Assembly (NCBI GenBank): GCA_016869735.1
Contig: VGDL01000009.1
Location: 1 to 64,000 of the forward strand
Length of the DNA stretch: 64,000 nt
Origin: Alphaproteobacteria bacterium
Lineage (GTDB): Bacteria > Pseudomonadota > Alphaproteobacteria > Acetobacterales > Acetobacteraceae
Reading direction: 5' to 3'
Shown here piece by piece: positions 2,830 through 4,886 of the stretch. Made by a program: the position numbers and the translations under genes. Below the pieces are notes generated by a model. The model worked only from the letters and a program-made list of their open reading frames with translations. It did no database searches and had not been told where the DNA came from. Numbering within the stretch: the stretch's first letter is position 1; each line of letters opens with the position of its first letter.

Positions 2830-3726
2830 TCAAAGCGCGGCGCGAAACTCCTCCGCCCGATAGCCCTGCGCGAATAGCAGTGCGCGCAAATCCGCATGAT
2901 CAACGCGCGCCCGCGCCGCCGCCGCCACCACGGGCTTCGCTTTGAACGCCACGCCAAGCCCAGCCGCGCCCACCATGTCCAGATCATTCGCGCCGTCGCC
3001 GACCGCGAGGGACGCCGTCAGCCCAATCCCTTCTTCCGCTGCCAGGCGCTTCAGCGTAACCAGCTTGGCATTGCGGCCCAGGATGGGCTCACCCACCAGG
3101 CCGGTCAGCCGGCCGCCCTGATGCAGCAGGGTATTGGAGTAATGTTCATGAAAGCCGAGCCGTTCCGCGACCCGGCCCGTGAAATAGGTGAAGCCGCCGG
3201 ACACCAGCGCGCAGCGCGCGCCATGGGCGCGCATGGTCGCGACCAATTCCTCGGCGCCTGGCATCAGGGCGGTGGTGGCCCAGGTGCGTTCCAGCGCTTC
3301 CATGGCCAGGCCCTTCAGCATGCCAACGCGTTCCCGCAGCGCCCCTTCGAAATCCAATTCGCCATTCATGGCGCGCCGCGTAATGGCCGAGATTTCTTCC
3401 TTCAGCCCGGCCTCACCGGCCAGTTCATCCAGCGTTTCGCTGGTGACCATGGTGCTGTCCATATCGGCAATCAGCAGGCGCTTGCGCCGCCCCGCCGCTT
3501 CCTGCGCGATGGCATCAACGGGGCTGCCTTCCAGCGCCGTCCGCGCCGCGCGATCGGCAACTTCCAGCGGCAGGTCAGCGAAGGGGAGATCGGCAGCCTC
3601 TTGCGCAGCAAGCGGCGCTGCGGCACCGACTTCAGCGCCCGCGTTTCGCAGCGCTGCGGCGACCTTGGCGTGATGTTCCGGGGCAAGCGCGCCGCGCGGC
3701 GCGATCAGGGTCAAAACCTTTTCCAT
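2830..3726 (-). CDS. serB: Phosphoserine phosphatase
   Basis: LLIADMDSTMVTSETLDELA HAD motif, LVSGGFTYFTG, VGDGANDLDM. Start set at MEKVLTLIAPRG; the longer ORF to 3945 reads through the repeat array. Confidence 0.92.
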   Translation of the reverse strand: MEKVLTLIAPRGALAPEHHAKVAAALRNAGAEVGAAAPLAAQEAADLPFADLPLEVADRAARTALEGSPVDAIAQEAAGRRKRLLIADMDSTMVTSETLDELAGEAGLKEEISAITRRAMNGELDFEGALRERVGMLKGLAMEALERTWATTALMPGAEELVATMRAHGARCALVSGGFTYFTGRVAERLGFHEHYSNTLLHQGGRLTGLVGEPILGRNAKLVTLKRLAAEEGIGLTASLAVGDGANDLDMVGAAGLGVAFKAKPVVAAAARARVDHADLRALLFAQGYRAEEFRAAL

Positions 3727-3746
3727 ATCTGGCCTATGCCCGCGCC

Positions 3747-4886
3747 GTGAATGAGTTTCAACCTCAAGCGTCCGATTTGCAAAGGTCGAATGACCGGAGC
3801 AGTGAATCGGCCGCTTCAAACCAAGCGTCCGATCTGCAAAGGTCGAATGACCGGAGCAGTGAATCGGCCGCTTCAAACCAAGCGTCCGATCTGCAGAGGT
3901 CGAATGACCGGAGCAGTGAATCGGCCGCTTTAAAACCAAAGGCACTTTTCGTTGTGGGGCCGACGGCCTCCGGCAAATCCGCCCTTGCGCTGGCCGTCGC
4001 CGAACGCTTGGGCGGCACCATCATAAACGCCGATAGCATGCAGCTCTATCGGGAACTCCACATCATCACCGCCCGCCCAAGCGCCACGGATGAAGCCCGC
4101 GCGCCGCATCTGCTTTACGGCGTGCGCCCTGCCGCTGAGGCTGCCTCCGTCGCCTGGTGGCGCGATGCTGCGTTGGCGGCGATGGAAGAAGTCCAGGCAG
4201 CGGGGAAGCTCCCCATTATTTGCGGCGGCACCGGCATGTATTGCGCGGCGCTGACCCAAGGGCTTGCCGCCATCCCGCCCATCCCCCCGCCCGCGCGCGA
4301 CGAAGCCCGCCGGCTTTTGGCCGAAGAAGGCCCGGCCGCCCTGCATGCGCGGCTGGCGTCTGAAGACCCTGCCTCTGCCGTGCGCCTCAGGCCCAGTGAC
4401 AGCCAGCGCATCGCCCGCGCTTGGGAGGTCTGGCGCGGCACCGGGCGCGGCATCGCGGCCTGGCAGGCAGAACCAAGCGCCGCCCCCGCGCCCTGGCGCT
4501 TCGCCGCCATTCTGCTGGACCCGCCGCGCGATAGGCTGCGTGCCGCCATCGCCGCGCGCTGGGCGGCGATGATGGCGGGGGGCGCGGTTGAAGAAGTGCG
4601 CGCCCTATTGGCGCAAGGCTTGGACCCCGCGCTGCCGGCCATGCGGGCCTTGGGCGTGCCGGAAATCGCCGCCATGCTCGCCGGGCGGCTCACGCCTGAG
4701 GAAGTCTCTGCCTGCGCCATCCTGGCGACCGGGCAATATACCAAGCGGCAAGCCACTTGGTTCCGCCACCATGAACTGGCCCCGCCAGAACGTACTTATA
4801 TCATAAATGCGCGATTTGAAGATTTGGCGCAATTTTCGGAAAGTGAATCAGCCAAATTTTTCGCATTTCTTGATTTTATCCGTTGA
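3747..4886 (+). CDS. miaA: tRNA dimethylallyltransferase with a 3x19-aa repeat N-terminal extension
   Basis: KALFVVGPTASGKSALALAVAERL P-loop, INADSMQLYRELHIITARP, QYTKRQATWFRH. GTG start at 3747 upstream of the repeats; no alternative start between the repeats and the P-loop. Confidence 0.92.
   Translation: MNEFQPQASDLQRSNDRSSESAASNQASDLQRSNDRSSESAASNQASDLQRSNDRSSESAALKPKALFVVGPTASGKSALALAVAERLGGTIINADSMQLYRELHIITARPSATDEARAPHLLYGVRPAAEAASVAWWRDAALAAMEEVQAAGKLPIICGGTGMYCAALTQGLAAIPPIPPPARDEARRLLAEEGPAALHARLASEDPASAVRLRPSDSQRIARAWEVWRGTGRGIAAWQAEPSAAPAPWRFAAILLDPPRDRLRAAIAARWAAMMAGGAVEEVRALLAQGLDPALPAMRALGVPEIAAMLAGRLTPEEVSACAILATGQYTKRQATWFRHHELAPPERTYIINARFEDLAQFSESESAKFFAFLDFIR
3766..3930. 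repeat. Three tandem copies of a 57-bp palindromic element (51-bp palindrome plus 6-bp spacer)
   Basis: Unit AAGCGTCCGATCTGCAAAGGTCGAATGACCGGAGCAGTGAATCGGCCGCTT at 3766, 3823 and 3880 with CAAACC spacers. Arms AAGCG(T)CCGAT / ATCGG(C)CGCTT, inner CTGC/GCAG, GGTC/GACC, tetraloop GAAT. Confidence 0.95.

Follow-up and report, generated by a model that had tools for sequence, protein, structure and literature searches.

Three in-frame copies of a dispersed palindromic repeat at the 5' end of miaA in an Acetobacteraceae bacterium

The miaA gene of an Acetobacteraceae bacterium (assembly GCA_016869735.1) opens with three near-identical tandem repeats. This locus raises the question of where the repeats came from and whether they are translated as part of the tRNA dimethylallyltransferase. 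The gene was found in contig VGDL01000009.1, whose first 64,000 nucleotides were analysed as one stretch (the window; all positions refer to it). The preferred answer, to which we assign a probability of about 0.82, is that the array consists of three head-to-tail copies of a dispersed hairpin repeat that was inserted between codon 6 and the miaA core and then expanded.

Exact pattern matches define three imperfect palindromes of 51 bp, separated by CAAACC spacers (Table 1), while no match to the unit pattern is expected in shuffled sequence. The array is in frame close to the miaA start, and its period of 57 bp corresponds to 19 codons. TRF places it at 3757-3939 with a period of 57 and 3.2 copies. 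Folding of units 1 and 3 yields z values of about -3.5 to -3.8 relative to dinucleotide shuffles. An earlier note on this DNA, made from the sequence alone, had described near-identical 57-bp tandem units in miaA; pattern matches, TRF period and folding bear this out, and the differences between units are confined, as it stated, to two positions (T/C and A/G) within CGATYTGCARAGG. The four open frames that it listed across the repeats all exist, but the one on the minus strand at 2830-3945 corresponds to serB, extended spuriously at its 5' end through the repeats.

Table 1. Features of the serB-miaA region of the window.
Feature	Position	Strand	Basis
serB, divergently transcribed	2830..3726	-	NCBIfam serB; ATG conserved in relatives
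miaA, tRNA dimethylallyltransferase including the in-frame array	3747..4886	+	ORF, TIGR00174, Pfam IPPT, start conserved in relatives
Native N-terminal codons V/M-N-E-F-Q-P	3747..3764	+	Position common to relatives without array
Entire insert relative to the empty site	3765..3941	+	Comparison with empty sites L040, L083, L121, L128, L130
Palindromic unit 1	3766..3816	+	51 bp; pattern match, folding, covariance model R1 70.6 bits
Palindromic unit 2	3823..3873	+	51 bp; pattern match, R1 74.2 bits
Palindromic unit 3	3880..3930	+	51 bp; pattern match, folding, R1 75.0 bits

The unit forms a bulged hairpin of 17 pairs. In an alignment of 112 distinct units fitted to the covariance model, 97.8% of the pair cells are standard, nine pairs show two-sided changes and covariation is 0.276 compared to 0.095 after shuffling; a MAFFT alignment of 26 units gave the same picture. 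Rfam models run over positions 3500-4200 gave no match on the repeats. A role of the unit as intrinsic terminator was rejected, the copies read having no T-run directly after the unit on its own strand, except for a few with short T-rich flanks. The unit is often followed by a second hairpin, with GATC at its core and outer arms that vary from locus to locus (e.g. L155, L185, L149 and L237), and a GATC pair is present within 75 nt of the unit at 13 of 46 sites, compared to 3.4% of random stretches.

The repeat is widespread in the family. BLAST detected related units in 24 of 100 genomes, distributed over three genera, and covariance model R1 identified 20 copies at E<0.01 in the genome of the window. 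Each of the 36 genomes sampled from the genus carries between 1 and 29 copies, and across the Acetobacteraceae copies are present in 55 of the 150 genomes sampled (40/102 genera). The named close relatives of the window are Roseomonas and Neoroseomonas records. R1 found no copies in 143 class-wide alphaproteobacterial genomes except in the window's own, and blastn against a plasmid collection gave no match. Twelve head-to-tail copies with a period of 54 lie outside called genes in genome G056 (L317 2060-2703; G056:C2:80059-80702); the long tandem arrays of other genera are all outside called genes and provided no further in-frame case.

This distribution bears on the idea that the repeats arose by tandem duplication of an unremarkable local sequence, or that they are an assembly error in a genome reconstructed from a metagenome. 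The window's genome is indeed split into 131 contigs and the contig of relative G002 ends within its own array. However, the element is found in many independent assemblies, including a single-copy miaA in JADCFN010000040 (L074), and copies dispersed across the family contradict both versions of this idea, which is highly improbable.

Insertion is supported by the miaA site itself, which is empty in some relatives and filled in others. The 5' end of miaA at empty sites reads ATG-AAG-GAG-TTT-CAA-CCT-CTC-GCC or close variants, and the junction falls after CCT and before CTC. A single unit with its junctions adds 63 nt in place of CTC, for a net gain of 60 nt, and in the window 177 nt replace this one codon, a net gain of 174 nt or 58 codons. 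One unit is present in miaA of G021, G026, G034 and one of the two copies of G027, and three units in the window (part of genome G000) and in G002, whose contig ends inside the third. The reading frame is intact in all filled genomes that were read. No target-site duplication could be cleanly recognised at the miaA insert. The two miaA genes of G027 (L130 and L019), one empty and one filled, come from an assembly with 6% contamination and may belong to two strains.

The history of the filled sites is less simple. On a miaA tree built without G002, whose miaA is cut by the contig end, the filled sites need three changes and their grouping as a single clade is rejected (p-AU 0.0002), so that a single simple insertion fails to explain the distribution. 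The pair C8-G44 is common to all miaA units; in the other sampled copies of the genus it is rare and is accompanied by other differences. Such sharing favours, short of proof, one insertion lineage followed by losses or lateral exchange. Recombination of the miaA 5' end among filled lineages received no decisive backing, local identities being only slightly raised. The data do not distinguish between insertion at a hot spot, a single gain followed by losses and lateral exchange.

The comparison of MiaA amino termini in relatives, with empty and filled orthologous sites and a conserved start position, agrees with the earlier reading of the repeats as an N-terminal extension. The start codon is GTG in the window and ATG at the corresponding position in the relatives read, whether empty or filled. 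The full-length protein matches TIGR00174 with 207.6 bits from residue 67 and Pfam IPPT from residue 99, profile matches that identify its core as a complete tRNA dimethylallyltransferase. AlphaFold models residues 1-59 mostly with pLDDT <50 and the core mostly with >90. MiaA would then carry a disordered tail of 59 residues, translated from the upstream, ancestral start as its conservation suggests.

MiaA might alternatively start past the repeats, leaving the array as a leader that is not part of the protein. The earlier note had reported no ATG, GTG or TTG in frame from the last repeat to the MiaA core, which is correct, and the first in-frame candidate past the array is a GTG inside FVVGP. 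Initiation there could be envisaged, the more so as the window uses a weaker GTG at the native position where relatives have ATG, but it would delete strand 1 just ahead of the P-loop. The relatives read keep the ancestral ATG position, no other in-frame start precedes the core, and the helicase described below shows that members of this family are read in frame in the middle of a protein. A start past the repeats is accordingly quite improbable.

Five of the seven differences between units within the G000 and G002 arrays are synonymous, compared to 23% expected (binomial p about 0.01, calculated by hand); this excess is suggestive of coding constraint but is confounded by the hairpin. Given its predicted flexibility, the tail is most probably a tolerated addition and not a useful one.

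Two other genes incorporate the element in their coding sequence. A helicase with DEAD, Helicase_C and HA2_N Pfam domains, which we take from this domain reading to be of the HrpB type, has 0 to 3 copies in frame between its DEAD and Helicase_C parts (L028 1497-1669, L033 1530-1582; also L268 and L275). G030 has three copies and G018 about one and a half, the other genomes showing apparent remnants or none. These units are 60 bp apart and are read from the opposite strand compared to miaA (GPIHGSAPFGAPPIGPD...). Because the copies are mid-protein, no alternative start can remove them from the product. The other gene encodes a flavin oxidoreductase whose carboxyl terminus in G000 and G015 is a translation of the element, with loss of the last native codons (L155/L292, G000:C20:23858-23908; L300). 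Its insert of 96 bp has CTAG at both ends and comprises the unit and the second, GATC-cored hairpin; the site is empty in the other readable relatives.

Elsewhere the 3' ends of genes are the main location of copies, many of which provide the stop codon. Among 47 sites, clustered from the best-scoring matches rather than sampled at random and analysed with a home-made gene caller based on codon usage, the first three bases of the unit are the TAG stop of the upstream gene at 15. The upstream gene stops at a TGA in unit columns 8-10 at four sites and within 10 nt before the unit at three, while two genes read through the unit in frame 3. At eight sites a convergent gene has its end no more than about 100 nt away, and the remaining 15, miaA included, have other placements. 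Copies at L027, L030 and L031 are close to a GC-rich hairpin and to an apparent end of a tRNA gene.

Two unit frames hit a stop at once and frame 3, the one used in miaA, is open. Since frame 3 is free of stops and 57 bp are 19 codons, copies can be added without frameshift. All 28 multi-copy loci are arranged head-to-tail. Periods of the coding arrays, 57 in miaA and 60 in the hrpB-like gene, are multiples of three, whereas those of intergenic arrays are mostly 55 or 56, with some of 54, 57, 59, 60 and more.

The neighbourhood of serB suggests a different role for the array, as a cis-acting DNA or RNA element of the serB-miaA control region whose hairpins may modulate serB or miaA, its translation being incidental. 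The serB ATG at 3726 and the miaA start are separated by only 20 bp, and at such close spacing the serB promoter probably overlaps the miaA 5' end. An array some 40 bp upstream of serB, a strongly covarying hairpin and many other copies at gene 3' ends, in regions that are probably transcribed, would all fit such a function. Yet the site is empty in most close relatives, copy number varies, and here the period and the length of the insert can both be divided by three, in contrast to the 55 or 56 bp of most intergenic arrays. We consider this regulatory role unlikely.

Insertion of a dispersed repeat followed by expansion thus remains the preferred reading. The repeat would have inserted in frame after miaA codon 6 and the array would have grown by slippage or unequal recombination, the original spread of the family probably involving transposition or copying in trans. 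Translation from the ancestral start would run through the repeats, read as QASDLQRSNDRSSESAASN x3, and place a flexible tail before the intact MiaA core. The earlier proposal of a mobile REP/MITE-like element that tolerates coding insertion, by analogy with the Rickettsia palindromic elements (RPEs), gains support from the presence of other copies in this genome and in the family, from empty and filled sites and from the other in-frame copies, transposition itself being presumed. A lack of further copies, which that note had named as grounds for refutation, is contradicted by the dispersed units. A bolder and rather doubtful extension is that an element lacking RAYT repeatedly targets the same miaA codon boundary in separate lineages and expands by codon-multiple units, which would make it a repeated source of protein tails.

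In-frame insertion of selfish palindromic DNA has so far been argued mainly from Rickettsia. Here the empty, one-copy and three-copy states of one miaA site can be compared in close relatives outside that genus. Spread without RAYT and creation of usable protein segments become directly testable questions, because these states are comparable and a second gene has 0 to 3 copies mid-protein. For genome annotators, such N-terminal extensions can be true coding sequence rather than start-site errors.

RPEs are dispersed palindromic repeats as well, some of which lie within housekeeping genes and preserve their reading frame (PMC10969869, PMC3733652); in behaviour they are the closest known kind. 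The present element resembles them by its in-frame insertion in miaA, the hrpB-like helicase and the flavin oxidoreductase. It differs in the length of the unit (about 51-57 bp compared to ~150 bp), in its Acetobacteraceae hosts and in the location of most copies at gene 3' ends. Moreover, strand and peptide differ between the miaA and hrpB-like copies, unlike in RPEs, whose encoded peptide is conserved.

Di Nocera et al. (PMC3733652) described GTAG and CGTC REPs, their intragenic copies and the use of REP ends as stops. GTAG REPs are short palindromes near gene 3' ends that can supply a TAG stop, with known intragenic copies (PMC3733652), a property shared by the present gene-3'-end palindrome. 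GTAG is however found at only 6/47 sites, CTAG, TTAG and ATAG occurring too, and the present hairpin is longer, bulged, of 17 pairs and head-to-tail in all multi-copy loci read. The search for a Y1 (RAYT) transposase was negative for 35 of 36 genomes of the genus and, in other genera, for 10 of 11 genomes that carry the element; RAYT was rejected as mobiliser, being essentially absent from the host genomes searched.

CGTC REPs are alphaproteobacterial, have no dedicated transposase, include RPE-4 and RPE-6 and are reported to be missing in Acetobacteraceae (PMC3733652). The present family shares with them alphaproteobacterial hosts, a CGTC string that roughly half of the units have close to their 5' end (among 106 distinct units, CGTC in 51 and CGCC in 47) and the lack of a dedicated transposase. 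In contrast to their unpaired tag, C4 and G5 are base-paired with 3' partners in more than 90% of units. Stem and loop differ as well, and the 28/28 head-to-tail loci contrast with CGTC REPs, mainly head-to-head dimers with negligible head-to-tail arrangement.

Within the Acetobacteraceae, RepRanger predicts, in a generic manner, 1,369 REP palindromes in Lichenicola cladoniae, which belongs to the same family as the present hosts (PMC12306157). Our literature search on Roseomonas with REPs or palindromic repeats returned nothing relevant. A MITE would have terminal inverted repeats of an autonomous transposon and a target-site duplication; one site shows a 96-bp stretch with CTAG at both ends, miaA shows no clear target-site duplication, and the search for a parent transposon covered Y1 enzymes. 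The repeat is REP-like in the broad sense, with many copies, a conserved hairpin and a mostly extragenic location near gene 3' ends. The family appears undescribed, and its best reading is a new Acetobacteraceae family of REP/RPE-like palindromes that tolerates coding insertion and is set apart from GTAG and CGTC REPs and from RPEs by the defining features tested.
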